From Propionispira arboris (GTDB lineage: Bacteria; Bacillota; Negativicutes; Selenomonadales; Selenomonadaceae), in contig NZ_FNZK01000001.1 in NCBI RefSeq assembly GCF_900109225.1, positions 62,001-126,000 on the forward strand: a stretch of 64,000 bases of DNA, read 5' to 3'. The notes beneath the pieces were generated by a model. It was not told the origin of the DNA and did no database searches. It saw nothing but the letters and a program-made list of their open reading frames with translations. Both the position numbers and the translations under genes were made by a program. Positions 2,118-62,720 of this stretch are shown here, piece by piece (positions within the stretch are counted from its first letter, which is position 1; every line of letters begins with the position of its first letter).

Positions 2118-3616
2118 TGAGCCTTGAAAAATCAATATAAATCGGCCAGTAGATTCCAATATCATGAAGATTTTGGCAGACTTTCAGCCCATAAGGATGG
2201 TAGTTCCTGTAGAAATGAATCCAGCATCAGTTGGACGGCTTGCTCACTTAGCAAGCAATTTTTCTGAATCAATTCGGCAAATTGTAGTAGTACAAGATGG
2301 AGTGCCTCCAGAAACTGTAAATCTGGTAATTCATCAATAGTCAGATAGAAGAGTTCGCCAATACTGCGCAAATCTTGGTTCTCCCGCTGTTCTACAGCCA
2401 GCAACATATATCGGGTAAACACCACAGCTACATGTGCGGTCATGGCGTCGTAGAAAATCGAACGGCAGTCCTTACTGAGATGCAGATAAGATTTGCAGAT
2501 CTTGAAGAAAACCTCAATGCCCCAGCGTCGCCCATATAGGCTGATGACTTCTTCTTCGCCAAGGGACATGTCGGTCGTAACCAGTACCAGATAGTCTTTA
2601 CGCCGATTGCGGTTATGCACATAGACGAAGCGGACAGGAATGCCTTGCCGTCCTTAACGGCTCCCGCTTCTACGGAAAGCAGATATTTAGCACGGCCGCG
2701 GCGTTTCGTATTTTGCTGGTAAATTGCTTTAACATCCTGCATCTTGCTGGTTTTCTTTGCCATAGCGATGACGTCAAAACCAATATCCTTTATGGCTGTT
2801 AATGAAGCTGGAGCGCAGAAACATTTGTCAAATAAGACATGCTGCGCAGAAATGCCAGCAGCCTTTGTTTCTTTGAGCAGCTTTAGGACAACATCCGTTG
2901 CTTTCAGCTGTGCCAGCTTGCGTTGCCTACCTCCGTTGGTACGTGGATCCACTTTAGTCGAAGCTTCATTGATCCGATTTTTCTGATTCGCCGTAGACAA
3001 AAGGCAATGGCTGACCGGCAGGAAGGTATTGCCATCTGACCATCCGAGAGTGAGCATACGGAAGCCGAAGGTGTAAAGACCATGTGCATGGTCGAATACC
3101 TTCGCCAACAGCTCGACCTTTTTCGAACGAGACCGGCTAAAAATAGAGTCATCGATGATAAGTACATTGCGTCTCTTCTCGTCAGTCAATGGCTCAATAG
3201 AGTGTCGGATGATACTGGAATTCAGCAGTGTAGTGAACTTGCGCATTCGTATGGCAGGAATTCATGAAACGGTAGAACGTATCCTTGCCGAATGGCAGCG
3301 TGTCCGGATAGAGATTCATCTGCATATAGAGAGACTTGTGCTGGAATACGATGCTGACGGCCAGCAGGAAAATCTGCATAGCTGGAATTCCCATGATTTT
3401 GTTGGCATTGGCGGTGTGCAAGATTTTGGCAATACGATACTGCTGAAAAAATCGCATTGATTTTGCCGAAAGGCATTTCGTCTGATGGTTGTCTTGTGTT
3501 ATACTTTTCATAGCATGAGCCTCCATTTGTATGGTTTTATTTCGCAATTTTATTATACAAAATGGTTGTGGTTCATGCTATTTTTATTGTCATAAATATT
3601 GAATTTTCAAGGCTCA
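2118..3616 (-). mobile_element. Degenerate IS4-type insertion sequence
   Basis: A roughly 1.5-kb element with terminal inverted repeats of 21 bp, one mismatch apart (TGAGCCTTGAAAA at 2118 and its complement ending at 3616). It contains one broken transposase on the minus strand. No flanking target duplication is visible, so the boundaries or flanks have probably decayed. The right end abuts another transposase scrap, making this a site of repeated insertion. Confidence 0.85.
2162..3511 (-). pseudogene. IS4-family transposase with two frameshifts
   Basis: Three consecutive reading-frame pieces together give a full DDE transposase. The N-terminal part starts at 3511 behind a GGAGG site and runs to about 3240. 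The middle part carries IDDSIFSRSRSKK (first Asp) and LFDKCFCAP (second Asp). The C-terminal part starts near 2640 with the YGRRWGIEVFFK signature of IS4 elements, which holds the catalytic Glu. The first frame change is near 3235-3250 (between CHTN and RKFTTLL), the second near 2635-2645 (between DGKA and IPVRFVYVHNR). With two shifts it is not expected to be active. Programmed frameshifting at both sites is unlikely. Confidence 0.88.
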
Positions 3617-13156: not shown

Positions 13157-13264
13157 TTTCGCTGCATTCATAGGAGCCTTGTATTTTCGGCCAAATAAGG
13201 TTAAAATTATACAAAATGATAATAAACAATTTACAACAATAAAATAATGCGGTGGAGGGCTTGG

Positions 13265-14176
13265 ATGAAAATGATAAAAGGGCTTGTTTTTGATATACAG
13301 CGGTTTTCTACACATGATGGTGATGGTATTCGAACTACCGTGTTTTTGAAAGGCTGCCCGCTGCACTGTGTGTGGTGCCAAAATCCAGAAGGTATTTCAC
13401 CAGAAAAAAAATTAGTGTATTTTCCTAATAAATGTATTTTTTGTGCTTCCTGTTTGCAGATAGCGGATAAAGCGATAGAAATCAGCGGTAATAAATTGAT
13501 TTTGTCGCAAGCCAAAGTTAAAAATGGTGAACGATATGAAGAAATTTGTCCTACCGGCGCATTGAAAATGGATAGTCGTGAATATAGCATTGAAGAAGTT
13601 TTGGAAATTGTCATGTCGGATCAGGCTTTTTTTGTTCATGGCGGCGGTGTTACATTGTCTGGAGGTGAACCGTTTTTTCAAAAACAATTTACACTTGAGT
13701 TGCTGAAAAATTTGCAGAAAAATCACATTCACACGGCAGTAGAAACATCTTTATTTGTTGATCAAGACTATCTGCTGCAGGTTTTGCCATATATAGACAC
13801 ATTGTTTGCCGATTTAAAAGTGTTTGATGCGGCGCGGCATCAAAAAATAACGTCGGTGAATCCACAATTGATTCAGGATAATATTAAGTATGTGTTACAG
13901 TCACCACATCGAAATAAAGTCGTAATTCGCACTCCACTGATTCCAGAGTATACAGCGTTTTCAGAAAATATTCGTCAGATTTGTCGATATATTACGGATA
14001 TTTTCCCTGATGTAAAATATGAATTATTGAATTATAATCCTTTAGCAAAAGCTAAATATGAGCATGTGGAAGCTTCCTATTGTTTTGAGGACAATCATCC
14101 GCTGTACAGTGCGTCTGAAATGAATGGTTTTTATGCTATGGCATATCAAGCCGGTATAAAGAATTTAATTGTCTAG
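13265..14176 (+). CDS. Glycyl radical enzyme activase (PflA-like radical SAM), orphan
   Basis: A 303-residue radical SAM protein of the glycyl-radical activating family. Seen: GDGIRTTVFLKGCPLHCVWC with the SAM-cluster cysteines at 31, 35 and 38, GGGVTLSGGEP as the SAM-binding GGE motif, and an inserted ferredoxin-like segment. That insert has only CIFCASC (57, 60, 63) and one further Cys in ICPTGAL (95), fewer than the eight cysteines of a typical two-cluster insert. The start at 13265 is set by GGTGGAGG; an upstream ATG at 13247 overlaps this site. No glycyl radical enzyme gene lies nearby, so the target is unknown. A DeoR regulator follows at 68 bases. Confidence 0.9.
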   Translation: MKMIKGLVFDIQRFSTHDGDGIRTTVFLKGCPLHCVWCQNPEGISPEKKLVYFPNKCIFCASCLQIADKAIEISGNKLILSQAKVKNGERYEEICPTGALKMDSREYSIEEVLEIVMSDQAFFVHGGGVTLSGGEPFFQKQFTLELLKNLQKNHIHTAVETSLFVDQDYLLQVLPYIDTLFADLKVFDAARHQKITSVNPQLIQDNIKYVLQSPHRNKVVIRTPLIPEYTAFSENIRQICRYITDIFPDVKYELLNYNPLAKAKYEHVEASYCFEDNHPLYSASEMNGFYAMAYQAGIKNLIV

Positions 14177-47953: not shown

Positions 47954-49123
47954 TCATTCGAGTATGTTTTTTAGATTTTGCAAAGCCTGCGTGAGCGTTG
48001 CACGGGGGCAGGCGATATTAATTCTTTGGAAATTTGCGCCTTCAGGACCGAACATCGGACCGCGATCAAGCCACAAACCGGCTTGATGGATGATTTTTTG
48101 ATCTAACTCTTCCGGCGATAGGCCCAGTGCAGAAAAATCAAGCCAGATCAAATAAGTTCCTTCTGGTTCGACGAGTCTAACACCAGGGAGTTCTTTTTCG
48201 ATAAAGTCCCGACTCAGACGAAGATTTTCTGTCAGATATACTTTCAGTTGGTTCAGCCAATCCCGACCATGTTCATAAGCTGCTTTTGCTGCAATCAATC
48301 CTAACGAATTTAACTCACAATATCCGGTTTTATTAATCTCTTTTTGAAATTTTTTTCTTAAAGTTTGGTCAGCAATAAAAATATGTGAGACTTGTAAACC
48401 GGCTAGATTGAATGTTTTACTCGGCGCTGTACAAGTGATCGTACGATTTAAGTATTCAGGTTTTAAATCAGCAAATACATGGTGTTTATATCCGCTGTAA
48501 ACAAATTCATGATGTATTTCATCAGCTAAAATTAAGACATCATGTTTTAGGCAGATGTCACCGATGCGAATGAGTTCCTCTTTCGTCCAGACTCTGCCAA
48601 CGGGATTATGTGGACTGCAGAGAAGAAAGAGTTTTACGTTGTTTTGAATAATTTTTTCTTCGAAATCCATGTAGTCCATTTCATAATGAAAATTTTTATA
48701 AATGAGCGGTGAATTGACCAGCCGCCGATCATTATCTTCGATTGTCAGTGAAAAGGGATAATAGACGGGTCTCTGAATGAGTATACTGTCACCGGGGTTT
48801 GTGAAAGCCCGAATGGCCATGGCAATGGAAAAAACAACCCCGGGGGCTTTAATAAGCCAGTCTTCCTGGACTTTCCAGTTGAAAGATTCATCCAGCCATT
48901 TAGCAATTGTTAGAAAATAATCACGTTTGACATCTGAATACCCAAAAATACCATGCTGGCAGCCGGCGGTTATGGCGGCGATAATTTCAGGTGCAGTCAT
49001 AACATCCATATCGGCTACCCAAAGCGGCAGTATATTTGCAGGTTTGCCGCGTTCTACAGCAAAGTCATACTTTAAAGAATTCGTATTTTTTCGATCAATA
49101 ATCTTATCAAAGTTATAATTCAT
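47954..49123 (-). CDS. patB: PatB/MalY-type cystathionine beta-lyase aminotransferase
   Basis: A 389-residue fold-type I PLP enzyme that splits C-S bonds in cystathionine, cysteine or related compounds. Seen: NILPLWVADMDVMTAPEI, SPHNPVGRVWTKEEL, LADEIHHEFVYSG and the PLP lysine in APSKTFNLAGLQ near residue 233. It is co-transcribed 18 bases after the gamma-type lyase gene, downstream of the Rrf2 regulator. With cysK divergent from them, this is a sulfur amino acid group. The AGGAGG site precedes the ATG. Confidence 0.93.
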   Translation of the reverse strand: MNYNFDKIIDRKNTNSLKYDFAVERGKPANILPLWVADMDVMTAPEIIAAITAGCQHGIFGYSDVKRDYFLTIAKWLDESFNWKVQEDWLIKAPGVVFSIAMAIRAFTNPGDSILIQRPVYYPFSLTIEDNDRRLVNSPLIYKNFHYEMDYMDFEEKIIQNNVKLFLLCSPHNPVGRVWTKEELIRIGDICLKHDVLILADEIHHEFVYSGYKHHVFADLKPEYLNRTITCTAPSKTFNLAGLQVSHIFIADQTLRKKFQKEINKTGYCELNSLGLIAAKAAYEHGRDWLNQLKVYLTENLRLSRDFIEKELPGVRLVEPEGTYLIWLDFSALGLSPEELDQKIIHQAGLWLDRGPMFGPEGANFQRINIACPRATLTQALQNLKNILE

Positions 49124-49141
49124 AGGTAGTCCTCCTGAAAA

Positions 49142-50275
49142 TTAAATAAAGGCCGCTTCGAGATCGGCGATGAGATCGGCGGCATTTTCGATACCAACTG
49201 ATAATCTTAAGAGACATTCATTGATCCCTTTTGCTTCACGTTCTGCTTGCGGCAGGTCAGCATGGGTTTGCATCATTGGATAGGTCATGAGTGTTTCTAC
49301 ACCGCCCAAGCTTTCCGCAAATTGAATGATTCTAATATGTTCTAATAGCTGACAGGCCGTTTTTTCTTGATCAACGGTAAATGAGATCATACTACCATAG
49401 CCCGAAGCTTGTTGGGTTGAAATTTCATAAGCGGGATGTTCTGGTAAACCGACATAATATACTTTTTTTATTTTTGGCTGCTTTTTTAACCAATTTGCAA
49501 TTTGCAAAGCATTTTCTTGTTGTTTTTCCATGCGAATTGCTAATGTTTTTATGCCCCGCAATAAAAGCCAGCTGTCAAAGGGAGCTAAGCAAGAGCCAAC
49601 TGTCTTATAAATGAATCGTAATTTGGCTGATAGTTCAGCATCATTCACGACGAGAAAACCAGCCAGGGTATCATTGTGTCCACCCAAATATTTCGTTCCG
49701 CTGTGTAAAACAACATCAGCACCAAGGCTGAGTGGCTGCTGAAAATAAGGTGTAAGGAAGGTATTATCGACGATGACAAGCAAATTATGTGTTTTAGCGA
49801 TTTCGCAAACAGCTTTGATATCTGTAACATTCATCATCGGATTGGTTGGTGTTTCAACATAGATTGCTTTTGTGCGGGGGTTGATATTTTGTTCGATCTG
49901 AGCTAGATCGGACGTATCAATTGAACTAAAAGAAAGACCGTTTTTTGTGGAGATATGATCGAACAAGCGGTGTGAACCACCGTATAAATCGTTCGAGGCG
50001 ATGATATGATCACCTGGAGTGAACAGTTCCATTAACATAGTAAGTGCTGCCATACCCGTGGAAAACGCCATTGCGTCCAAACCGTGTTCGAGTTGAGCAA
50101 CCGTTTTTTCTAAGTGCTCACGGGTTGGGTTTTGCAGGCGTGAATAATCATAACCGGCAGTCTGACCGACTCCGGGGTGAACAAACGTTGCTGATTGATA
50201 AATCGGCATACTGATTGCTCGGGTAGGGTTATGTTCAATGGCTGCTGCATGAATGCAGAGGGTATCTTTTTTCAT
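49142..50275 (-). CDS. Cys/Met-metabolism PLP enzyme (cystathionine gamma-lyase/synthase)
   Basis: A 377-residue enzyme of the MetB/MetC/MccB family. Seen: PIYQSATFVHPG, YDYSRLQNPTREHLE, the segment STGMAALTMLMELF, DNTFLTPYFQQPLSLGADVV and the PLP lysine in HSGTKYLGGHNDT near residue 195. Sequence alone does not separate gamma-synthase from gamma- or beta-lyase. Beside cymR, cysK and patB a role in interconverting methionine and cysteine sulfur is likely (MccB-like). It lies 15 bases after the regulator gene in the same transcript. Confidence 0.9.
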   Translation of the reverse strand: MKKDTLCIHAAAIEHNPTRAISMPIYQSATFVHPGVGQTAGYDYSRLQNPTREHLEKTVAQLEHGLDAMAFSTGMAALTMLMELFTPGDHIIASNDLYGGSHRLFDHISTKNGLSFSSIDTSDLAQIEQNINPRTKAIYVETPTNPMMNVTDIKAVCEIAKTHNLLVIVDNTFLTPYFQQPLSLGADVVLHSGTKYLGGHNDTLAGFLVVNDAELSAKLRFIYKTVGSCLAPFDSWLLLRGIKTLAIRMEKQQENALQIANWLKKQPKIKKVYYVGLPEHPAYEISTQQASGYGSMISFTVDQEKTACQLLEHIRIIQFAESLGGVETLMTYPMMQTHADLPQAEREAKGINECLLRLSVGIENAADLIADLEAAFI

Positions 50276-50290
50276 TTATTTCAGTCCTTT

Positions 50291-50737
50291 TTAAATAAAA
50301 TACATAAAATCATCGATTGGTTTTTGCTTTTCTGCTTCGTTGATAATATCATTTAATGATATTTGTTTTAATGTTTCAGAAAGATTGCGGTCAATCACAT
50401 TAAATACGGTGATACGAAGGGCTGCATCGAGCGAAGGTGCTTGCTCTTTGACCGTGCTTTCGGTTGTTTCAACTAATGCAATTTCAATGGCGGCCAATAT
50501 CGCATATACAGTGATTTTGTTTGGAGCTAAAGCTAATTGATAGCCGCCTTGGGCTCCTTTTATCGAATTGACCAGACCGGATCTTTTGAGCAGTGAAAAA
50601 ACTTGTTCAAGATAAATCTTAGAAATACCCAGCTTTTCAGCAATGCTAATAATGGTAATCGGGCTGCCCGTTTGATAGTTTTGTGCCATATGTGACATGG
50701 CTGCAAGACCATAGCGCCCTTTTGCAGAAATTTTCAT
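50291..50737 (-). CDS. cymR: Rrf2-family regulator, CymR-like
   Basis: A 148-residue Rrf2 winged-helix regulator. Seen: MKISAKGRYGLAAMSHMAQN at the start (a CymR and IscR hallmark), AEKLGISKIYLEQVFSLLKRSGLVNSIKGAQGGY for the recognition region, and no cysteine triplet, so it is not an iron-sulfur IscR. In Bacillus, CymR represses cysteine genes and interacts with CysK. Here the gene is divergent from cysK, which fits the same partnership. It heads the operon with the lyase and patB. Confidence 0.85.
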   Translation of the reverse strand: MKISAKGRYGLAAMSHMAQNYQTGSPITIISIAEKLGISKIYLEQVFSLLKRSGLVNSIKGAQGGYQLALAPNKITVYAILAAIEIALVETTESTVKEQAPSLDAALRITVFNVIDRNLSETLKQISLNDIINEAEKQKPIDDFMYFI

Positions 50738-50776
50738 GAATAACCACCCATTTCATACTAATACTATATGTTTTTC

Positions 50777-50806
50777 ATTATAATATAAATTGAAGTAAAA
50801 TGTCAA
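50777..50806 (-). promoter_or_regulatory. Promoter of the cymR-lyase-patB operon
   Basis: Minus strand TTGACA (50806-50801), 18 bases, TATAAT (50782-50777). Just downstream lies AAAAACATATAGTATTAGT, which overlaps the predicted start and resembles motifs at cysK and the NifH-like gene. Confidence 0.7.
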
Positions 50807-50839
50807 TAACATAGTTGAGGAGTATGTTATTGACATTTT
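50797..50839. promoter_or_regulatory. 17-bp perfect inverted repeat between cymR and cysK
   Basis: AAAATGTCAATAACATA (50797-50813) and its complement (50823-50839) flank a 9-base spacer. The left arm contains the -35 of the cymR promoter. The symmetric arrangement suggests a regulator site or duplicated -35 box; the right arm also holds TTGACA on the plus strand. Confidence 0.7.
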
Positions 50840-50851
50840 TCCGAAAAAGTA

Positions 50852-50907
50852 TTGACAGGATTCGTAAAGGGGTATACAATACAAACATATTAATCATATA
50901 TGTTTTA
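50852..50907 (+). promoter_or_regulatory. cysK promoter with putative CymR-type operator
   Basis: TTGACA (50852-50857), 17 bases, TACAAT (50875-50880). AACATATTAATCATATATGT and the following TTTTAC (50884-50907) cover the start point, so a repressor bound here would block initiation. A related sequence is present before the NifH-like gene at 57739-57758. Confidence 0.65.
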
Positions 50908-50983
50908 CAAAATAATTCGAACAAAACATTTGCGTTTCGAGTTTAGTAGTCAAGATAAAAAATAATATGCGGAGGGATTCAAC

Positions 50984-51916
50984 ATGGCAAAAATTTATGA
51001 AAGCATTACAGATCTTATCGGAGGTACGCCCTTATTAAGAGTAAAAAATTATAGTGAAAAACATGATCTTAAAGCAACAATCCTGGCTAAATTGGAATAT
51101 TTTAATCCGGCAGGCAGTGTAAAAGATCGTATCGCAAAGGCAATGCTTGATGAAGCAGAAGAAAAAGGTCTCATCAATAAAGATTCCATCATTATTGAAC
51201 CAACAAGTGGTAACACAGGTATTGGCCTGGCAAGTGTAGCAGCAGCTCGCGGTTATAAAGCGATTCTTACAATGCCGGAAACAATGAGTATTGAAAGAAG
51301 AAATCTTCTTAAGGCATATGGTGCTCAGATTGTATTGACGGATGGTGCAAAAGGTATGAAAGGTGCAATTGCAAAAGCGGAAGAGCTGGCAAAAGAAACA
51401 CCACATTCCTATATTCCATCCCAGTTCACAAATCAGGCAAATCCAGCTGCTCATAAAGCAACTACAGGTCCTGAAATTTGGCAGGATACAGATGGAAAAG
51501 TAGATATTTTTGTTGCTGGTGTTGGTACTGGTGGAACCTTGACTGGTGTTGGGGAATATTTGAAATCGCAAAACCCGGCTATCAAAATTGTGGCAGTTGA
51601 ACCTACAACATCACCGGTATTGTCAAAAGGCGTTGCCGGTCCACATAAAATACAGGGAATTGGTGCAGGTTTTGTACCGGATACATTAAATACTAAAATT
51701 TATGATGAAATCATAACCATTGATAATGAAGTGGCATTTAAATTTGCTCGTGATTTCTGTCATTCAGAAGGTGTACTCGTTGGTATTTCCTGCGGTGCAG
51801 CTTTTGCCGCAGCTGTAGAACTTGCTAAACGCCCGGAAAATGAAGGAAAAACGATTGTGGCACTTTTGCCAGATACAGGTGAACGGTATTTATCAACTGC
51901 TTTGTTTACGGACTAA
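50984..51916 (+). CDS. cysK: Cysteine synthase A (O-acetylserine sulfhydrylase)
   Basis: A 310-residue PLP enzyme making cysteine from O-acetylserine and sulfide. Seen: [19 protein letters not shown] with the PLP lysine near residue 43, [11 protein letters not shown] near 69, [17 protein letters not shown] and [15 protein letters not shown]. Full length and intact. It is transcribed divergently from the Rrf2 regulator. GGAGGG precedes the ATG. The last C-terminal residues are ALFTD. Confidence 0.97.
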
Positions 51917-52172: not shown

Positions 52173-52229
52173 AAATTTTGTGATTTTATAAAAAGACAAA
52201 ATAGTTGGGAAATTAATGGAGTGATTTGT

Positions 52230-53318
52230 ATGGCAGTGCAAAAAAGTGAGCCGAAATATTTGAAAATTGTTAATTGGATCAAACAGCAGATTGCCGAAGA
52301 AGCTCTCACCGTAGGGGATCGACTTCAATCGGAAAATGAACTCAGTATAGCTTTTTCTTTGAGTCGTCAGACTGTGCGACAAGCAACGAGTATTTTAGAA
52401 AATGATGGTATTTTGGAAAGACGACGCGGTAGTGGAACGTATGTGGCATCAACTCGAATTGTGCAGCGAGCTGTTACAATGAATATTGGTGTTATTACAA
52501 CATATCTGGATGATTATCTATTTCCGCGTGTTATACGAGGTATCGATCAGGTTCTTACAAATAATAATTACTCAATGCAATTGGCTATTACATATAATAA
52601 AGTAGAGAACGAAATGAAAATTCTGGAAGCTATGCTCGAAAAAGGCGTTGATGGACTCATTGTCGAACCGACAAAAAGTGGTCTGCCAAACTTGAATGCA
52701 GAACTTTATAAGCAGATTAAACGTCAGAGCATTCCCTGTGTATTTATCCATGCTTGTTATCAGGGACTGAGCTTTCCTTATGTGGCTATGGATGATTATG
52801 CCTGCGGGAAAGCGGCGGTAGATTACTTGATGGAGAAAAATCATACACGTGTAGCGGGCATATTTAAAGCGGATGATATCCAGGGGCATCTTCGTTATGC
52901 CGGATGTGCGGGTGAATTGAAAAAAAATAAGGTTTTGCTGCAAGAAGACAGTATCGTCTGGTTTACGACGGAAGATTTAGATAGTGACGTAGTTGAAAAT
53001 TTTGAGCAGCGCATTTTGAAACGTCTCGATGGCTGCAGTGCTGTGATTTGCTATAATGATCAAATTGCCTTACGGGTGATGGATTTGTTAGCACGAAACA
53101 ACAAATCAGTACCAGAAGATCTATCGGTTATTTCATTTGATAACTCCAATTTGGCAACATTGGGACCTGTTGGACTGACTACCTTTACGCATCCAAAAGA
53201 AGAATTAGGCCGTGTGGCTGCTGAAAATCTTATGAAAATTATCCATAAAGAACAATGTGAAATGACTGTAAAGTTTAAACCAGAACTCATTGAAAGAGAT
53301 TCCGTCCGTGAGCAATAA
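52230..53318 (+). CDS. araR: Arabinose-responsive repressor AraR (GntR-LacI chimera)
   Basis: A 362-residue regulator: N-terminal GntR winged helix (residues 1-70; YLKIVNWIKQQIAEEALTVG, LSIAFSLSRQTVRQATSILE and RRRGSGTYV) joined to a LacI/periplasmic-binding-type ligand domain (MNIGVITTYLDDYLFPRVIRG onward, ending VISFDNSNLATLGPVGLTTF). This GntR-LacI fusion is the plan of Bacillus AraR. It stands before araB, araA, araD. ATG 52230 follows GGAGTG. L-arabinose would release it from its sites. Confidence 0.92.
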   Translation: MAVQKSEPKYLKIVNWIKQQIAEEALTVGDRLQSENELSIAFSLSRQTVRQATSILENDGILERRRGSGTYVASTRIVQRAVTMNIGVITTYLDDYLFPRVIRGIDQVLTNNNYSMQLAITYNKVENEMKILEAMLEKGVDGLIVEPTKSGLPNLNAELYKQIKRQSIPCVFIHACYQGLSFPYVAMDDYACGKAAVDYLMEKNHTRVAGIFKADDIQGHLRYAGCAGELKKNKVLLQEDSIVWFTTEDLDSDVVENFEQRILKRLDGCSAVICYNDQIALRVMDLLARNNKSVPEDLSVISFDNSNLATLGPVGLTTFTHPKEELGRVAAENLMKIIHKEQCEMTVKFKPELIERDSVREQ

Positions 53319-53345
53319 TTGCGTACGGAGTCTCTTTGTTTTTTA
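53293..53345 (+). terminator. Terminator overlapping the end of araR
   Basis: AAAGAGATTCCGT pairs with ACGGAGTCTCTTT, then GTTTTTTAT. The 5' arm lies inside the last codons of araR. Confidence 0.8.
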
Positions 53346-53412
53346 TTTATGACAGAGCAACAGAAAAGCATTTTAAATAAATTGATAATTCTAAAATTTT
53401 AGTAAAATAATA

Positions 53413-53482
53413 TTGAAAAATTTTATTTTAAATAGTATACTAACAATAGAACTTGTATGATAAATAAGCTTAGTTGTATGAT
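53413..53482 (+). promoter_or_regulatory. araBAD promoter with two AraR-type boxes
   Basis: TTGAAA (53413-53418), 17 bases, TATACT (53436-53441). Two TTGTATGAT copies at 53453 and 53474 are 21 bases apart, that is two helical turns, and lie just after the predicted start. A repressor there would block initiation or escape. Confidence 0.7.
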
Positions 53483-53556
53483 TTATGAAATTTCAACATA
53501 CAGTTTTGATAAACTGAAGTAGAAATGGGGAGTGAAAAAGTCTCGTTATTGCGAAG

Positions 53557-53612
53557 AGTCACTATATTATTGAATAGTCTTAAAAATAAGAATATTCAAT
53601 AATATAGTGACT
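53557..53612 (+). promoter_or_regulatory. 20-bp perfect inverted repeat in the araB leader
   Basis: AGTCACTATATTATTGAATA (53557-53576) is repeated inverted at 53593-53612 with a 16-base loop. No T tract follows, so it is not a normal terminator. It could protect the mRNA 5' end or form an operator. It lies about 68 bases before the araB start. Confidence 0.7.
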
Positions 53613-53679
53613 GGATCATTCGATTTGGGCATATTTTTTAGAAAATAAGTTGAGTCATAAATTTTTAGGAGGGGTATAC

Positions 53680-55359
53680 ATGCCAAAATATTCAATCGGT
53701 GTGGACTTTGGGTCACTTTCTGGCAGGTCGGTTTTAGTGGAAATAGGTACAGGTAAAGAATTAGATAGTTGTATTTTTGACTATCCCCATGCAGTGATGG
53801 ACAAGCAGCTGCCGGATGGAACAAAACTTGGTGTGGATTGGGCATTACAGGATCCGCAAGATTATATTGATGTATTATCGCATACAATTCCGGAATTGAT
53901 CAAAAAAACAGGTGTTTCCCCAGATGATATTATTGGAATCGGTACTGACTTCACGGCTTGTACAGTTTTACCTGTCAAAGCGGATGGAACACCACTTTGT
54001 TTTCTCGCGGAATATCGCAGTCAGCCGCATGCTTATGTGAAACTATGGAAACATCATGCAGCGCAGGATAAAGCGAATCAACTCAACGAGATTGCAGCCA
54101 AGATGGGCCAGTCATGGCTGCACAGATATGGTGGAAAAATTTCATCGGAATGGGCAATACCGAAAATTTGGCAAATTCTTGATGAAGCTCCGGAAATTTA
54201 TGCGGCGATGGATTATTTTGTTGAAGCTGCTGATTGGATTATTTGGCAGATGACGGGAGTACAGTCTCGTAATTCCTGTACAGCGGGATATAAAGCGATG
54301 TGGAACAAAAAAGATGGTTATCCATCTTCGGCTTTTTTTAAAGCTCTTGATCCGCGTTTAGAAGATATAACTACCACCAAACTAAGTTGTCCAGTTACAG
54401 CACTTGGTGAAAAAGCTGGGGAAATCACAGCGGAGATGGCTAAACTTACGGGACTCAATCCCGGAACGGCGGTAGCTATTGGCAATGTCGATGCCCATGT
54501 AACAATTCCGGCAGTCAAGATCGAAGGAACAGGAAAGATACTTGGTATTATGGGAACTTCTACCTGCCACGTGCTTTTGGGAGATGAAGAAAAAATCGTT
54601 CCCGGGATGTGCGGTGTTGTCGAAGATGGAATATTACCGGGATTTTTTGGCTATGAAGCAGGACAATCTTGTGTGGGGGATCATTTCGACTGGTTTGTTA
54701 AAAATTGCGTTTCTAGTGAATATGAAGCAGCCGCTAAAAAAGAACATAAGAATATCCATGAATATTTGACGGACAAAGCAGCCATGCTGGATGCTGGTGA
54801 GTCGGGACTTGTGGCACTTGATTGGTGGAATGGTAATCGTTCTGTTTTAGTTGATGTCGATCTGACCGGACTTATGCTTGGAATGACCTTACAGACAAAA
54901 CCAGAAGAAATGTATCGTGCTTTGATTGAAGCAACGGCTTATGGCACCCGGAAAATTATCGAAACCTTTATTAAGAGTGGTGTCCCAATTCAAGAGTTTT
55001 ATGCATCAGGTGGCATTTCACAAAAAAATGCTATGGCAATGCAGATTTATGCAGATGTAATTAATTTGCCAGTTAGAATTGCCGGTTCAAAACAGGGCCC
55101 GGCATTAGGGTCGGCAATTTTTGGTGCGGTAGCTGCAGGCAAAACACGTGGCGGGTATGACGATATATTTCAGGCAACACGTGACATGGGGAAACTTCGT
55201 GATGATGTTTACATCCCAAATCCGGTCAATGTGGCCGTGTATGATAAACTGTATGCAGAATATGATATCTTGCATGATTATTTTGGCCGTGGTGATAATA
55301 ATGCGATGAAACGTCTTAAAAAAATAAAAAAAGATGTAATAAAAGCCAAAAATAACTGA
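53680..55359 (+). CDS. araB: L-ribulokinase
   Basis: A 559-residue FGGY-type kinase phosphorylating L-ribulose to ribulose-5-P. Seen: [17 protein letters not shown] at the N terminus, [48 protein letters not shown] and [19 protein letters not shown] in the ATP domain. The ATG at 53680 follows TAGGAGGGG; a longer reading from 53650 would place the ribosome site inside the gene. It is the first gene of the araBAD set in this order. Length matches bacterial AraB. Confidence 0.97.
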
Positions 55360-55396
55360 AATTTTTAACAGCTAAGTGATGTTTTTACAATAAAAA

Positions 55397-55421
55397 TGAT
55401 ACTTTGAATTTTAGTATCATA
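55397..55421 (+). other. Small hairpin between araB and araA
   Basis: ATGATACT and AGTATCAT form an 8-bp stem with a 9-base loop. With no T tract it is likely an mRNA stability or processing element. Confidence 0.4.
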
Positions 55422-55441
55422 ATAATAGGAGGCAGATTTTT

Positions 55442-56923
55442 ATGAAATGTTTAAAAAAAGCAGAATTTTGGTTTATTACCGGTAGTCAACACTTGTATGG
55501 TGAAGAAACTTTACGTTTGGTAGGCAGCCATTCGGAAACGATTGTGGCAAAGTTAAATGAATCAGCAAAAATACCGGCGCGCATTTCGTTCAAGCTGGTA
55601 GCGACAACTTCAGATGCAATTGAACAGGTGATTGAAGATGCGAATCATGATAAAAATTGTGCGGGTATTATCACTTGGATGCATACGTTTTCGCCATCTA
55701 AAATGTGGATACGCGGTTTAGGAAAACTGCAAAAACCATATCTGCATTTGCATACGCAATTTAATCGAGAAATCCCCAATGAAGGGATTGATATGGATTT
55801 TATGAATTTAAATCAGTCCGCGCATGGCGATAGAGAACACGGTTTTATCGGTACGCGTATGCGATTGGCACGTAAAGTTGTCGTGGGCTATTGGGAAGAT
55901 GAAATCGTTCAGGAAAAAATCGGTAGATGGATGCGTACTGCTATAGGCGTCATGGGCAGCCGTGAACTGAAGGTGGCACGTTTCTCTGATAATATGCGTG
56001 ATGTTGCAGTGACAGAAGGAGATAAAGTAGAAGCACAGATCAAGCTTGGCTGGGCTGTTAATACCTATCCTGTAGGGGATTTGGTGCAATATATTAATAA
56101 AGTAACGGAAAGTCAAATTGATGTCCTCATGAAGGAATACGGTCAGAAATATACGATGCATACAGATAATCTTGCATCGGTGCGGTATCAGGCCAAAATG
56201 GAAATTGGGATGAAAACATTCCTTGAAGCAGGTGGTTTTGATGCTTTTGTCAATAATTTTGAAGACTTGTTTGGAATGGATCAGCTGCCGGGACTTGCTA
56301 CACAAGATCTGACGGCTGCCGGATATGGATTTGGGCCGGAAGGTGACTGGAAAATTGCTGCTTTGGCAAGTGTTATGAAAATTATGGCGCAAGATGATGA
56401 TAAGGGTACGGCTCTAATGGAAGATTATACGTATCATTATGCAGATCATGGTGAAAGCCTTATTTTAGGGGCACATATGCTTGAAGTTTGTCCAAGTGTG
56501 GCTGCGGATAAACCAAGGATTGAAGTGCATGATTTAGGTATCGGCGGAAAAGATGCTCCGGCACGACTTGTTTTTGAAGGTAAAGCAGGTCCGGCTATTA
56601 CGGCTACCTTGATTGATATGGGCGGCAGGATGCGTCTGATTGTGAATGATGTTCTGGCAGTAAAGCCAATCCTGTCGATGCCGAATCTGCCAGTGGCCAG
56701 AGTTATGTGGAAACCACTTCCTAATCTTGAAACGTCTGCCGAAAGCTGGATTTTAGCGGGCGGTGCTCATCACAGTGTAATTAGCTACAGTGTAACAGCA
56801 GAACAGCTGCGAGATTGGGCCGAAATCATGGATATTGAATTTGTGCATATTGGCGAAAAAACAGAGATCAATCAATTCAAACAGGATTTACTCATGGCAG
56901 ATCTTGTTTGGAAATTGAAATAA
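55442..56923 (+). CDS. araA: L-arabinose isomerase
   Basis: A 493-residue enzyme converting L-arabinose to L-ribulose. Seen: EFWFITGSQHLYGEETL at the start, WMHTFSPSKMWIRGL, HLHTQFNREIPNE, MDFMNLNQSAHGDREHGFI and the metal ligands in EDYTYHYADHGESLILGAHMLE (part shown) with EVCPSVA, and His in AGGAHHSVIS. RBS AGGAGG precedes the ATG. It is 82 bases after araB in the same operon. Full length. Confidence 0.97.
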   Translation: MKCLKKAEFWFITGSQHLYGEETLRLVGSHSETIVAKLNESAKIPARISFKLVATTSDAIEQVIEDANHDKNCAGIITWMHTFSPSKMWIRGLGKLQKPYLHLHTQFNREIPNEGIDMDFMNLNQSAHGDREHGFIGTRMRLARKVVVGYWEDEIVQEKIGRWMRTAIGVMGSRELKVARFSDNMRDVAVTEGDKVEAQIKLGWAVNTYPVGDLVQYINKVTESQIDVLMKEYGQKYTMHTDNLASVRYQAKMEIGMKTFLEAGGFDAFVNNFEDLFGMDQLPGLATQDLTAAGYGFGPEGDWKIAALASVMKIMAQDDDKGTALMEDYTYHYADHGESLILGAHMLEVCPSVAADKPRIEVHDLGIGGKDAPARLVFEGKAGPAITATLIDMGGRMRLIVNDVLAVKPILSMPNLPVARVMWKPLPNLETSAESWILAGGAHHSVISYSVTAEQLRDWAEIMDIEFVHIGEKTEINQFKQDLLMADLVWKLK

Positions 56924-56942
56924 GAGAGTAGGGTGAAGCTGG

Positions 56943-57632
56943 ATGCTGGAAGAACTTAAACAAAAAGTCTATGAAGCAAATATGATGCTGCCGGAATATA
57001 AAATGGTGACCTTTACCTGGGGTAACGTTTCAGCCATTGATGAAACACGCAAATTGATTGTTATTAAGCCATCCGGGGTTGAATATAATAAAATGAAAGC
57101 TGAAGATATGGTCGTTGTTGATCTGGAGGGAAATATTATCGAAGGTGAACTCAATCCATCATCGGATACAGCAACTCATATTGAGCTGTATAAAGCTTGT
57201 GCAAGCATTGGCGGCATAGTCCATACCCATTCACGTTATGCAACATCCTGGGCACAGGCAAGGATGAGTATTCCCGCATTGGGGACAACGCATGCGGATG
57301 ATTTTTATGGTGCAATTCCTTGTACGAGAGCAATGACAAATGAAGAAATTCAGGGAGATTATGAAAAAGAGACCGGAAAGGTAATCATAGAGACTATGGG
57401 GCAGCGCATGATGGAAGAAGTACCAGGCGTAATTGTTTATTCACATGGACCGTTTGCTTGGGGCCCTGATCCAATTGCTGCTGTAAAAAAAGCAGTTGTT
57501 TTGGAAGAAGTTGCATTTATGGCGTATCAGGCGATGACGCTTAATCCTTCTTTATTGCCGATGCAGCAAACACTGCTCGATAAACATTATCTGCGTAAAC
57601 ATGGTGCAAATTCATATTATGGACAAAAATAA
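56943..57632 (+). CDS. araD: L-ribulose-5-phosphate 4-epimerase
   Basis: A 229-residue class II aldolase-type epimerase giving xylulose-5-P. Seen: [37 protein letters not shown], the zinc ligands in [32 protein letters not shown] and the third His in YSHGPFAWG. It follows araA by 19 bases. It ends the operon at a terminator; products enter the pentose phosphate path. Confidence 0.97.
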
Positions 57633-57706: not shown

Positions 57707-57738
57707 AATAAAGAAAAACGACAAAACATATATTACAT

Positions 57739-57786
57739 ATAAAACATATATGTTTTATTGACGGTGCTATAATAGAATGTTATAGT
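57739..57786 (+). promoter_or_regulatory. Promoter of the NifH-like gene with a 20-bp palindrome
   Basis: ATAAAACATATATGTTTTAT (57739-57758) is a perfect palindrome that touches the -35 TTGACG (57758-57763); the -10 TATAGT follows after 17 bases (57781-57786). AAACATAT also occurs just before at 57724. CATATATGTTTTA is identical to a stretch at the cysK start point. Confidence 0.65.
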
Positions 57787-57819
57787 AAAGAAAAGATCAT
57801 AGCAAAGGTGGCAGGCTTT

Positions 57820-58692
57820 ATGAAAGAAGCGAAGAAAATTTGCTTTTTAGGAAAAGGCGGTGTAGGCAAATCGATCATTGCGTCAAATTTGAGTGAAGCA
57901 TTGGTACGGGCTGGATACCATGTATTGCAAATTGGTAATGATAGTAGTTTAAGCTCAACGATTTTACTCCGTGGTTTTACAGATGCGGTGCCAGCACTGG
58001 AAGAATACAGGAAAAATTATGTGATTCAACTGGCTGATTATATTATAAAAACTGCTTCGGGAGTTTATTGTTTAGAACTTGGTAGTTTAGAACCAGGGGT
58101 AGGTTGTATGGCGCGAGGCATTCAGATTATTGATGAAATGATGGAGATGCAGGGGATTACGGATGCTTTAGATTTAGATTACATCATTTATGATATTGCG
58201 GGGGATATTCCGTGTACCGGCTATATTCTGCCAATGCGTGATGGAATCATGGATACTTGTATTGTAGTCACCGATGGTTCGGTCACATCGTTTGTTACAG
58301 CCAATAGTATTATTGCTGGAATTGTAAAAGCAAGACGCAATGAGCCTATTTCCATTCAAATGCTGGTGAATTATGCGGATCGTTATCCAACCAGATCACA
58401 GTTAGATGCATATGCAGTGACGACACAGTTGACTATCTTAGATTATTTAGATTATTATCAGCGACTTGAGCATAGCGAATTGGCGGGGGAGACAATCTTT
58501 GTTTCGCAGCCAGACAGTAAGGCGGCTTTGTTTTTTACCGACCTGGTGGAAAAGATTACAGTTACAAAGCAAATAATTATGCCGCAGCCACTCGGGCGCA
58601 ATGAACTTTTTCGTTGGCTGAGGCTTTGGAAACAGCAGTCACTTGATCAAAAAAGCGGTGTAATCGGTGGGGATTACTCTGGTAATATTTAA
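57820..58692 (+). CDS. NifH-like iron-sulfur ATPase (nitrogenase reductase-like), orphan
   Basis: A 290-residue protein, the length of nitrogenase iron protein. Seen: P-loop GKGGVGKS at 11-18; Asp41 in GNDSSLSST (the NifH DPKADST region, where Lys and the second Asp are lost); EPGVGCMARG with Cys96; YDIAGDIPCTGYILPMRD with Asp125, Gly128, Asp129 and Cys132. Cys96/Cys132 match the 4Fe-4S ligands 97/132 of Azotobacter NifH, so a dimer bridging one cluster and donating electrons with ATP hydrolysis is inferred. No NifD/K-like partner is in the window. ATG 57820 is preferred; a GTG at 57808 overlaps the AGGTGG site. A MinD-like ATPase without cluster is the alternative. Confidence 0.8.
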   Translation: MKEAKKICFLGKGGVGKSIIASNLSEALVRAGYHVLQIGNDSSLSSTILLRGFTDAVPALEEYRKNYVIQLADYIIKTASGVYCLELGSLEPGVGCMARGIQIIDEMMEMQGITDALDLDYIIYDIAGDIPCTGYILPMRDGIMDTCIVVTDGSVTSFVTANSIIAGIVKARRNEPISIQMLVNYADRYPTRSQLDAYAVTTQLTILDYLDYYQRLEHSELAGETIFVSQPDSKAALFFTDLVEKITVTKQIIMPQPLGRNELFRWLRLWKQQSLDQKSGVIGGDYSGNI

Positions 58693-58731
58693 AAGGATTT
58701 TATATTGATGTAGGGGAGATCAGGTGAGGAA

Positions 58732-60084
58732 ATGCTTGATGTTGCAATCTGCAAAGGTTTAGTTATTAACACAAAGAGACAGACAAAACGAATAACGAAT
58801 ATTGGAATTAAAGCTGGTGAAATTGTCTGTGTTACAGGGGATGATTTGACTGCTTCTGTCGTAATTGATGCACAAGGCTTGATTGTAAGTCCGGGATTTA
58901 TTGATGTGCATGGACATGTTGATGGATACCTTTATAGTGGTGAATTATCTGCCTGCCAAGGGATTACAACAAGCATTGGTGGTAATTGTGGTCTAAGTCC
59001 GCTTGATTTTGATGATTTTTTTAATTGCCAGGAAAGAGATGGCTTTTATATCAATCAAGGTGAGTTAGTTGGCCATTCTTTTTCTTTGCGTCAAGCGGCA
59101 GGAATTGCTAATCCCTATCGGAGGGCTTTGCCGTGTGAGTTCGAGAAGATGAAGTATATGGCGCGTGCGGCATTGGATGCTGGAGCGTGTGGTATTTCGT
59201 TTGGGCTCGATTATTCACCGGGAGCATCTTATGATGAAATTACAGCCCTCGCCAGTATTTGTGCCGATTTTGATCGTGTTATGCCGATTCACACGCGTTT
59301 GTTTACGCAAAATGATTTATATTCTTTATTTGAAGTGTTATCGATTGCTAAACGAACGGGCGTTAAATTATTGTTTTCTCATTTTGTTTACCAGTATGGT
59401 TCAGGTATTATGGGCGATGCTTTAGAGATTATTGAAAAAGCAATACACGATGGACTCGATATTAAGATTGACAGCGGAATGTATATGGATTGGCTTACAT
59501 TTATTGGGACAGCTACGTTTGATGAACAGACAATTAATGATAATGAAATACGTTTTTCAGATATGATTGCAGCCAGCGGTCCCTATAAAGGGCAGCGGCT
59601 GAATCTGGAGTTGTATCGACTTATGCGCAAAAATTATCCCAATGATTCCGTTATTTGTTGCGTGCCAAATGATGCATCACAAATTTATGCTGCTTTAAAA
59701 CCAGATTATGCGATGCCATCCACCGATATAGGGCAATATCTGCCAGGTGAAGGTCATCCGCAAATTGCCGGGTCTTTTCCTAAGTATATTAAAGAAATGG
59801 TACAGGAACGGCATGATTTGACATTGGAAGCAGCCATCTATAAAGCAACGCTGCTGCCAGCGCAAACGTTTCATTTGGCAAAAAAAGGGCAGATTGAAGT
59901 TGGTATGGATGCGGATCTGACGATTTTCAATTTAAGTACGATTAAAGACACAGCGGTTTTCCCAGATCAAGGTTTCCCTGATAATAAGCCGGAAGGTATA
60001 GAATATGTCTTAGTGAATGGTGTGCCAGTTGTTGTCCAGGGGGCATTTACTGGTAAAAAACCGGGGCGGGTACTTCGGGCTTGA
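58732..60084 (+). CDS. D-aminoacylase-family amidohydrolase
   Basis: A 450-residue metal-dependent amidohydrolase (N-acyl-D-amino-acid deacylase/dihydroorotase-like barrel). Seen: GFIDVHGHVDGYL with His60, His62 and Asp64, GNCGLSP with Cys86 (the metal-bridging Cys of D-aminoacylases), PIHTRLF and LLFSHFVYQYG for further His ligands, AMPSTDIGQYLPGEGHPQ near residue 325, and the C-terminal VGMDADLTIFN. Known substrates are N-acyl amino acids and related amides. It starts 39 bases after the NifH-like gene, so they are probably co-transcribed, and a joint pathway is possible. No substrate can be named. Confidence 0.88.
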   Translation: MLDVAICKGLVINTKRQTKRITNIGIKAGEIVCVTGDDLTASVVIDAQGLIVSPGFIDVHGHVDGYLYSGELSACQGITTSIGGNCGLSPLDFDDFFNCQERDGFYINQGELVGHSFSLRQAAGIANPYRRALPCEFEKMKYMARAALDAGACGISFGLDYSPGASYDEITALASICADFDRVMPIHTRLFTQNDLYSLFEVLSIAKRTGVKLLFSHFVYQYGSGIMGDALEIIEKAIHDGLDIKIDSGMYMDWLTFIGTATFDEQTINDNEIRFSDMIAASGPYKGQRLNLELYRLMRKNYPNDSVICCVPNDASQIYAALKPDYAMPSTDIGQYLPGEGHPQIAGSFPKYIKEMVQERHDLTLEAAIYKATLLPAQTFHLAKKGQIEVGMDADLTIFNLSTIKDTAVFPDQGFPDNKPEGIEYVLVNGVPVVVQGAFTGKKPGRVLRA

Positions 60085-60110
60085 AAATAGATTTTGTACA
60101 GAAAACGACA

Positions 60111-60178
60111 AAAATACAGGGAGTAACGGGCTGGATTTGAATGTATCCATGGAGTCGTTGCTTCCTGTATTTTTGTTG
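60111..60178 (+). terminator. Terminator after the amidohydrolase
   Basis: AAAAATACAGGGAGTAACG pairs with CGTTGCTTCCTGTATTTTT with two mismatches; a loop of about 30 bases; T run ends the 3' arm. Confidence 0.75.
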
Positions 60179-60263
60179 GATTTTTTGAATTGACAACAAG
60201 TGACAGAATCTACAGAAAAAACAGAAAATTTAAATAAAATGTAAAAAATATTGAGCTTAAAAA

Positions 60264-61775: not shown

Positions 61776-62720
61776 GTGCCAGAACCTATAGCAAGAACAA
61801 TTTGTACCGAAAAACAGAAGAAAAAACAGTGGGGCGATTTATTTTTTTCACAGACGGCGGCTCCATATCTGTTTGTGTTACCCTTTGTTATTTCTTTTTT
61901 GATTTTTTTCCTATACCCGATTATTTCTACCGTTATTATGAGTTTTGAGAGAATTGATGGACCGGGTGATGTGACTTTTATTGGTTGGCAGAACTATATG
62001 AATTTATTGAATCCGCATTTTTTTAATGCGATCTGGATTACAACAAAATATACGTTTTGGACCTTACTTGTTTTGATTCCACTGCCTTTGTTGTTTGCGG
62101 TATGCTTAAATAAAAAAACACTGCCGGGCCGTAACTTTTTTCGCTCTGCTTTTTTTATGCCAGCACTGACATCGGTTATTGTAGCCGGACTTTTTTTCCG
62201 TCTGGCTTTTGGTGAACAGGATACAACGTTGATCAATTCAATGCTTAATGTATTTGGCATAAGTTCTACAGTATGGCTCCAAAATCCCAATACAGCGATG
62301 TTTGTTATGGTTTTGTTATGTACATGGCGCTGGCTTGGTGTCAATGTGATCTACTTTTTATCAGGACTGCAAAGCATTCCTGATGAATTATATGAAGCAG
62401 CCTCGATTGACGGGGCCAATGCTTGGGAAAAGTTTTTACACATAACGATTCCTGGGTTGAAACCAGTGATTGTATATGTGCTGACGATCAGTGTGTATGG
62501 TGGATATTCTATGTTTGCTGAATCCTTTGCCTTATTTAGCAGCGCGCGTTCTCCCGGTGAAATTGGTACAACGATTGTCACATATTTGTATCAAGAAGGG
62601 TTTAATAACAATAATTTGGGATTAGGATCAGCGATTGGTGTTGGTTTGTTTGTCCTCGTAATGGTCTTAAACATTATTCAATTATGGTTGAATGGTTTCT
62701 TTAAAAAGGAGGTTGACTGA
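61776..62720 (+). CDS. araP: Sugar ABC transporter permease, AraP-like
   Basis: A 314-residue MalF-type permease with six to seven membrane helices. Seen: LFVLPFVISFLIFFLYPIIST, the EAA loop EAASIDGANAWEKFLHITIP near residue 205-225, which docks the ATPase. GTG at 61776 is preferred as start because GAGGAGG lies 9 bases upstream; a longer frame opening at 61713 would add residues that include this ribosome site. It ends one base before the araQ start. Confidence 0.9.
   Translation: MPEPIARTICTEKQKKKQWGDLFFSQTAAPYLFVLPFVISFLIFFLYPIISTVIMSFERIDGPGDVTFIGWQNYMNLLNPHFFNAIWITTKYTFWTLLVLIPLPLLFAVCLNKKTLPGRNFFRSAFFMPALTSVIVAGLFFRLAFGEQDTTLINSMLNVFGISSTVWLQNPNTAMFVMVLLCTWRWLGVNVIYFLSGLQSIPDELYEAASIDGANAWEKFLHITIPGLKPVIVYVLTISVYGGYSMFAESFALFSSARSPGEIGTTIVTYLYQEGFNNNNLGLGSAIGVGLFVLVMVLNIIQLWLNGFFKKEVD

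Follow-up and report, generated by a model that had tools for sequence, protein, structure and literature searches.

What can a nitrogenase-iron-protein-like (NifH-like) ATPase do when the gene beside it encodes an amidohydrolase and no NifDK-type catalytic partner is nearby? The question arises from a 64,000-nucleotide stretch of Propionispira arboris DNA (positions 62001–126000 of contig C28, NZ_FNZK01000001.1, in a 4.26-Mb, 40-contig genome), hereafter the window, in which the two genes lie on the forward strand at 57820–58692 and 58732–60084. An earlier interpretation made from the letters alone (the sequence-only reading) saw in them either the reductase of a distant, unlinked partner or a new two-gene system. 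Judging from gene order, residues and a shared operator-like motif, we hold with moderate confidence that the pair is an anaerobic organosulfur-salvage operon of a CymR/Rrf2-like sulfur-limitation regulon, in which the NifH-type ATPase would work without component 1 (a NifDK-type partner).

The first gene encodes a 290-residue NifH-family ATPase of a derived subfamily with the switch I sequence GNDxSLSST, assigned by the Pfam model Fer4_NifH (PF00142; 169.1 bits, cut-off 25), by the best chain in the PDB and by its clade in the tree. The mechanical first start of its open reading frame is a GTG at 57808; the homologues align from 57820. The protein fell below the cut-offs of (i) the nitrogenase iron protein equivalog TIGR01287 (157.6 bits, cut-off 394.35), (ii) CfbC (NF033200; 154.7 bits, cut-off 402), (iii) BchL (TIGR01281; 108.2 bits, cut-off 345.15), and (iv) BchX (TIGR02016; 91.7 bits, cut-off 331.2). 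Membership of the MinD/ParA/ArsA group was rejected, since the cluster cysteines are present and the ParA, CbiA, and ArsA models reached 30.7, 28.3, and 16.4 bits, compared with 169.1 bits for Fer4_NifH. The best PDB chain was MarH (9fmg_D) with an E-value of 9e-46 (runner-up 1e-32), and a profile of the subfamily also placed MarH (9fmg) on top of the solved structures with 217.5 bits (runner-up 153.4). The P-loop GKGGVGKS, Cys96, Asp125, Gly128, Asp129, and Cys132 of the window protein align with solved Fe proteins, and its switch I reads GNDSSLSST where that of MarH reads GCDPKSDST.

The subfamily was found at seven loci, that is to say, in six genomes carrying four genus labels and in one named plasmid record. 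The class-wide scan gave members in 4 of 380 genomes, namely the P. arboris genome, G024 (98% identical), and G231 and G240 (both 61%); all other places at an E-value of 1e-40 or better were at most 34% identical. A search of named close relatives gave one locus, in Propionispira raffinosivorans DSM 20765, with a NifH-like protein 98% identical. Two of 398 genomes in a sample of the phylum carried a member (P. arboris and G745, 49% identical; next relative 35%), and G745 and G1015 were the sole members at 1e-56 in the class and the order of G745 (2 of 391 and 2 of 245 genomes). The plasmid collection added a single member, from Subdoligranulum variabile (OY725846, 50% identical). In a tree of 80 NifH-family rows, the seven members form one clade with an SH-aLRT (Shimodaira–Hasegawa-like approximate likelihood ratio test) support of 100. 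The clade was supported by 100/100 in a more careful tree with five members, for which 32 of the 80 rows (77 of them different) were picked by hand and BchL was omitted because of its very long branch.

All seven members keep the P-loop Lys, D39, T45, both cluster cysteines, R100, D125, G128, and R140; by sequence, the two cysteines (C97 and C132 in the family test) correspond to those that would bridge a [4Fe-4S] cluster of the dimer. By contrast, the K41 and D43 columns hold Ser in 7/7 members and K and D in all 73 other aligned proteins, BchL and MarH included, which argues that the switch I change is not drift of one copy. Further changes are D129 to Glu in three members, F135 to Tyr in six, and the signature Walker A Lys to Arg in the S. 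variabile locus (L089). Other residues, including C8, N40, P131, T133, and C147, are invariant and peculiar to the subfamily, and altogether 84 positions, both cluster cysteines included, are invariant among members that are 48–98% identical to the window copy. In the Azotobacter Fe protein, D43 and D129 take part in the ATP cycle by which that protein is coupled to component 1. From the kept cysteines and the changed switch residues, we infer that the cluster site is under selection and that the coupling to component 1 has been rebuilt or lost; the kept cysteines also suggest that the protein may be a working reductase.

The NifH-like gene is followed by the amidohydrolase gene, adjacent and on the same strand, at all seven loci. 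The gap is 39 bp in the window and in P. raffinosivorans (L017) and 18 bp at four other loci (L090, L091, L092, and L110), and the two genes overlap by 8 bp in L089. At the clostridial loci the pair closes a seven-gene run encoding an ATP-binding cassette (ABC) ATPase, two permeases, a PotD-like binding protein, an M20 amidase, the NifH-like protein, and the amidohydrolase. The whole run is present in L089 (OY725846.1, a 386-kb circular record called a plasmid), the member with Arg for the Walker A Lys, and, for the five genes ahead of the pair, S. variabile and G745 match at 49–62%. Much of the sequence-only reading is thus borne out: both reading frames are open at the positions it gave, the P-loop and the residues that it regarded as kept align with solved Fe proteins, the altered switch I recurs as Ser at K41 and D43 in every member, and the closest relatives are NifH-family proteins with both cysteines rather than MinD, ParA, or ArsA proteins. 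Its new two-gene system gains support as a genetic module from the constant adjacency and from these relatives.

As far as gene order and motifs tell, the pair is tied to sulfur genes, a context that the sequence-only reading had overlooked. In G231 and G240 (L090 and L091), the pair directly follows cysK, which is divergent from genes for an Rrf2-family regulator, a cystathionine lyase-type enzyme, and a PatB-type C-S lyase; downstream of the pair come a pyridoxal kinase-like gene and an ABC transporter of the polar amino acid type. In the window, the four sulfur genes occupy 47954–51916, and arabinose genes (52221–57632) lie between them and the pair. They are, on the reverse strand, a PatB/MalY-type C-S lyase (47954–49123; TIGR04350, 459.8 bits, cut-off 340), a metB/mccB-like member of the cystathionine lyase/synthase family (49142–50275; best score 478 bits, below the equivalog cut-off of 594), and an Rrf2-family regulator (50291–50737; TIGR00738, 97.9 bits, cut-off 73.3), and, on the forward strand, the cysteine synthase gene cysK (50984–51916; TIGR01139, 457 bits, cut-off 351). 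The regulator stayed below the CymR cut-off (99.1 bits, cut-off 195) and the IscR cut-off (93.7 bits, cut-off 207.6). A plain CymR label was therefore given up, and we designate it CymR-like because the Rrf2 superfamily cut-off was passed.

A 17-bp motif, CATAYTAAWMATATATG, occurs once before rrf2 and once before cysK in the window, G231, and G240. The motif search placed the two window sites at 50754–50770 and 50886–50902 on the forward strand, and a third operator-like site, CATATAAAACATATATG, at 57736–57752 (forward strand), 67 bp before the start of the NifH-like gene; this site is conserved in P. raffinosivorans. Three sites in the window at no more than two mismatches compare with 0.26 expected, two of the three having been used to derive the motif. 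Directly after the third site lies a promoter-like TTGACG-17-TATAGT with a TG before the second hexamer (57758–57786, forward strand; 10 of 12 matches), a kind of site that is weak alone (10 in the region compared with 9.6 in shuffles). A long terminator-like hairpin with a T run (60106–60178, forward strand) closes the two genes; the fold of 60100–60185 has −40.4 kcal/mol and a z-score of −8.32 and was missed by the terminator consensus scan. Because of the hexamers and the closing hairpin, the pair looks like a transcription unit of its own. Riboswitch or T-box control was rejected, as no Rfam match reached the gathering score in the window and six loci gave only a cyclic di-GMP-I riboswitch far from the pair (L090, 623–706, 62.8 bits), which is unrelated to it.

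The whole genome was searched with a slightly looser pattern, in which one position was relaxed after the site of the pair had been seen. Five exact sites resulted, before cysK, the pair, metY, an OscA-like-NflD-NflK operon, and an M20 amidase/aminopeptidase pair. Allowing one mismatch raised the number to 22, compared with 3 for the reversed pattern; one of the 22 precedes genes for an M20 amidase and a MetN/MetQ-type transporter, and another a UroD-like gene. The surroundings of 12 of the 22 were examined (3 in the window, 1 in L111, and 8 others), with some families named by eye. The M20 protein encoded behind an operator site on contig C22 is 44–46% identical to the M20 amidase of the clostridial operon, and that on C23 27–29%. 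From the M20 and transporter matches, it follows that the kinds of parts of the clostridial operon recur, dispersed, behind the same motif in the P. arboris genome. The Nfl link of the motif holds for one P. arboris operon only. That operon belongs to a large Nfl-type region on contig C32 (57507–73216; L111 and L112) with one NifH gene, six NifDK-like genes, a NifB-like gene (272.6 bits, cut-off 343.65), and, named by eye, two cysK-like genes and ABC transporters; the exact motif stands before its OscA-like gene (45.7 bits, cut-off 85).

The second gene encodes a 450-residue metal amidohydrolase of the D-aminoacylase/N-acyl-D-glutamate deacylase family (PF07969, 78.4 bits, cut-off 29.7), and the best solved match of a profile of the seven paired proteins was 3gip (201.7 bits). 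H60, H62, C86, H187, H217, and D332, which we take to be metal-site residues from their roles in D-aminoacylase, are invariant in all seven and align with 3gip and 1m7j. Amidohydrolases of this kind occur in 40 of 380 genomes of the class at an E-value of 1e-30. Of the 41 places, 4 are paired, 26 (46–50% identical) were compared, and 11 weaker ones (32–41%) were left out. Where the seven paired proteins have H187, L214, and C309, all 26 unpaired relatives have Asp, Gln, and Val, respectively, so that the type of metal site follows the pairing. The 26 proteins (L122–L147, Negativicutes), with Asp at metal-ligand column 187 and C86 kept, themselves have an unusual metal site for a D-aminoacylase-like family. 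Twenty unpaired loci were fetched and 15 annotated, many genes being named by eye. Three of the 15 are divergent to the NifH gene of a Mar-type cluster about 1 kb away; one comes after two metB-like genes in a run of such genes; and another lies no more than about 2.6 kb from a Pot-type transporter. These contexts indicate that the amidohydrolase is at times tied to sulfur and that the ATPase is dispensable in places. The operator search, with one mismatch allowed, gave nothing in the 20 loci.

In the organosulfur-salvage reading, sulfur limitation would trigger the import of an N-acylated or amide-linked organosulfur compound, from which the amidohydrolase, together with the M20 amidase in the clostridial operons, would free a sulfur amino acid or thiol. 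In aerobes, for example Bacillus subtilis, a monooxygenase carries out the corresponding step; here, the NifH-like dimer may supply ATP-gated low-potential electrons, or its cluster, for that step. The acceptor might be the amidohydrolase, its substrate, or another acceptor outside the NifDK fold, and the released sulfur would feed CysK and MetY. Electron donation is our preferred role, given the intact cluster site and the organosulfur reductases that the likely nearest kin serve (MarHDK and IsrHDK). A narrower version appears doubtful to us, namely that the pair would be the first case of a nitrogenase-type ATP-dependent [4Fe-4S] reductase with a catalytic partner outside the NifDK fold, the metal-dependent amidohydrolase, and that ATP and low-potential electrons would drive an oxygen-independent release of sulfur from organosulfur compounds that are N-acylated or amide-linked. 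The idea that the amidohydrolase itself accepts the electrons through an Fe-S cluster, with C75 and C153 as candidate ligands, was rejected: both cysteines are lost in S. variabile, and C153 also occurs in 26/26 unpaired relatives.

Several observations weigh against the salvage reading. On the regulatory side, the motif before the window pair is one base off; the third site in G231 and G240 stands before the ABC transporter and not directly before the pair; and 4 of the 12 examined sites (on C11, C14, C34, and C37) have no evident sulfur link, 2 of them lying inside reading frames. In the three clostridial loci, a search allowing one mismatch detected no operator site, so the regulon evidence comes from Negativicutes only, and no sulfur gene was seen beside these loci. 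The Nfl regions of G231, G240, G420, and P. arboris contig C11 (L113–L116) likewise have no site at one mismatch. The transporters differ between loci (polar amino acid type and Pot type). As for the ATPase, the subfamily joins the MarH side (support 80/93) via a long branch, and the approximately unbiased (AU) test does not reject a grouping with NifH (p-value 0.063); the loss of K41 and D43, with D129 as Glu in 3/7 members, could uncouple ATP hydrolysis from electron transfer. As for the amidohydrolase, a cluster is unsupported because C86 and C309 are the only invariant cysteines of the seven paired proteins; the 26 relatives (46–50% identical) come from genomes that lack a NifH-like protein of the subfamily; and no sulfur link was seen for 10 of the 15 annotated unpaired loci.

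A possible, if somewhat unlikely, alternative is that the NifH-like dimer is a metal-centre chaperone that would load or activate the metal site of the amidohydrolase without donating electrons, by analogy with UreG, HypB, and CooC. These related P-loop NTPases act on metal centres, and urease, the target of UreG, belongs to the amidohydrolase superfamily. Such a role would account for the constant adjacency and the difference in the metal site almost as well as electron donation does: His stands at column 187 in the seven paired proteins and Asp in all unpaired ones, columns 214 and 309 differ too, and the cluster cysteines are kept while the switch residues are changed. However, the protein matches the NifH family and not a UreG or HypB model, the sulfur regulation is left unexplained, and an amidohydrolase on a Cetobacterium plasmid (34% identical) has His at column 187 and lies among D-amino-acid genes, with no NifH gene annotated in 17 kb.

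It is quite unlikely that the NifH-like protein is an additional reductase serving Nfl/Mar-type DK proteins whose genes lie elsewhere. The sequence-only reading was right that the 64-kb window holds no NifDK-type gene, since all 12 PF00148 matches of the genome are on C17 (4), C11 (2), and C32 (6). Such genes are also present in the other Negativicutes carriers (14 matches in G024, 10 in G231, and 9 in G240), none beside the pair, and the Nfl operon behind the operator motif would suit a second reductase. Yet the three PF00148 regions of P. arboris each have an ordinary NifH gene of their own, and K41, D43, and F135 are changed in the subfamily. Moreover, G745 and G1015, each 99% complete, have a single NifH-family gene above 100 bits (173 and 178; next 28). 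G745 has no PF00148 match at an E-value of 0.001, and in G1015 a search up to an E-value of 10 gave nothing above 15.5 bits (cut-off 28.6); for S. variabile, the search covered the plasmid record and likewise gave none. Because of the two near-complete carriers, a NifDK partner at a distance is improbable as a general explanation, and, to judge by these searches, the subfamily appears able to do without a partner of the NifDK fold; in the four Negativicutes genomes that hold such genes, a distant partner may exist. The label "orphan" hence stands as regards component 1 and fails as regards context, given the sulfur genes.

Equally improbable is a degenerate Fe protein turned into an ATP- or redox-responsive regulator or carrier and no longer an enzyme component. 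The Arg at the signature Walker A Lys in L089 and the Glu at D129 in three members would suit it; the 84 invariant positions, with both cluster cysteines among them, and the enzyme gene that is always next to it speak against it. Chance neighbourhood, which the position of the window pair between arabinose and sugar-transport genes might suggest, is refuted by synteny, as the two genes are adjacent at 7/7 loci in unlike surroundings.

A conserved subfamily that occurs without a NifD-type protein, whose switch I is rebuilt and whose neighbour is always the amidohydrolase, makes the idea of an Fe protein module driving other chemistry testable with two small genes, and the pair suggests an anaerobic route of sulfur scavenging in gut and fermenting bacteria. 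Elsewhere in the window, a glycyl-radical-activase-like gene (13247–14176, 309 residues, named by eye) has no obvious glycyl radical enzyme gene adjoining it and is followed by a DeoR-type regulator gene, and a transposase-like gene (2162–3246, by eye) appears as two overlapping frames, apparently frameshifted.

In a literature search mostly confined to journals outside subscription, the titles and abstract openings of the matches listed describe no pair of a NifH-like protein and an amidohydrolase. To our knowledge, the characterised NifH-family reductases hand electrons to a NifD-type protein, and we know of no D-aminoacylase/N-acyl-D-glutamate deacylase-type enzyme coupled to a NifH-type ATPase. 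The amidohydrolase shares its family and metal-site residues with these enzymes (1m7j and 3gip). In place of the aerobic monooxygenase route of B. subtilis, the anaerobes discussed here have a NifH-like ATPase. The salvage of S-(2-succino)cysteine in B. subtilis, with its N-acetylcysteine deacetylases, would follow a parallel logic of an N-acyl sulfur amino acid and an amidase, as far as the accessible parts of the reports go (PMC12757645, PMC9706529). UacY of Clostridioides difficile, which according to the text available hydrolyses N-acyl amino acids, again shares the amidohydrolase family and the metal-site residues (PMC12507026). Metallo bile-salt hydrolases (PMC13081902) may offer a lead towards amides of taurine.

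On the ATPase side, the accessible portion of one survey lists 236 RefSeq genomes with nifH but without nifDK, vnfDK, or anfDK, 136 of them Clostridia and some Negativicutes, and assigns these genes no role (PMC8597730). The subfamily resembles these "pseudo-nifH" or T3-nifH genes in being NifH homologues in genomes without nifDK, and it may supply a setting for some of the nifH genes that lack an explanation in anaerobes without DK (PMC8597730). Pseudo-nifH is reportedly hard to tell from true NifH (PMC8597730, same portion), whereas the window protein reaches 157.6 bits against a cut-off of 394; two Nfl/Mar-type H proteins scanned with the NCBIfam nifH model gave 464 and 415 bits at that cut-off. 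Group IV Nfl enzymes, as the available text describes them, consist of H, D, and K, only Cfb being without K and most having a radical S-adenosylmethionine protein (PMC11423573). With them and with the isethionate reductase IsrBHDK, the subfamily shares an ATP-dependent reductase family serving sulfur sources under anaerobic conditions (PMC11423573, within the same text); unlike them, it has no D gene beside the pair and none over the cut-off in G745 and G1015. The best solved relative is MarH of the Mar complex (9FMG), that is, of the methylthio-alkane reductase MarHDK (PMC12552129, in the part accessible to us). The subfamily has in common with it the NifH family, the P-loop, both cluster cysteines, and sulfur metabolism. 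The switch I of MarH reads GCDPKSDST, and its partners are MarDK and the maturase MarB (PMC12552129); by contrast, the subfamily has GNDxSLSST and, in place of an adjacent DK gene, the amidohydrolase.

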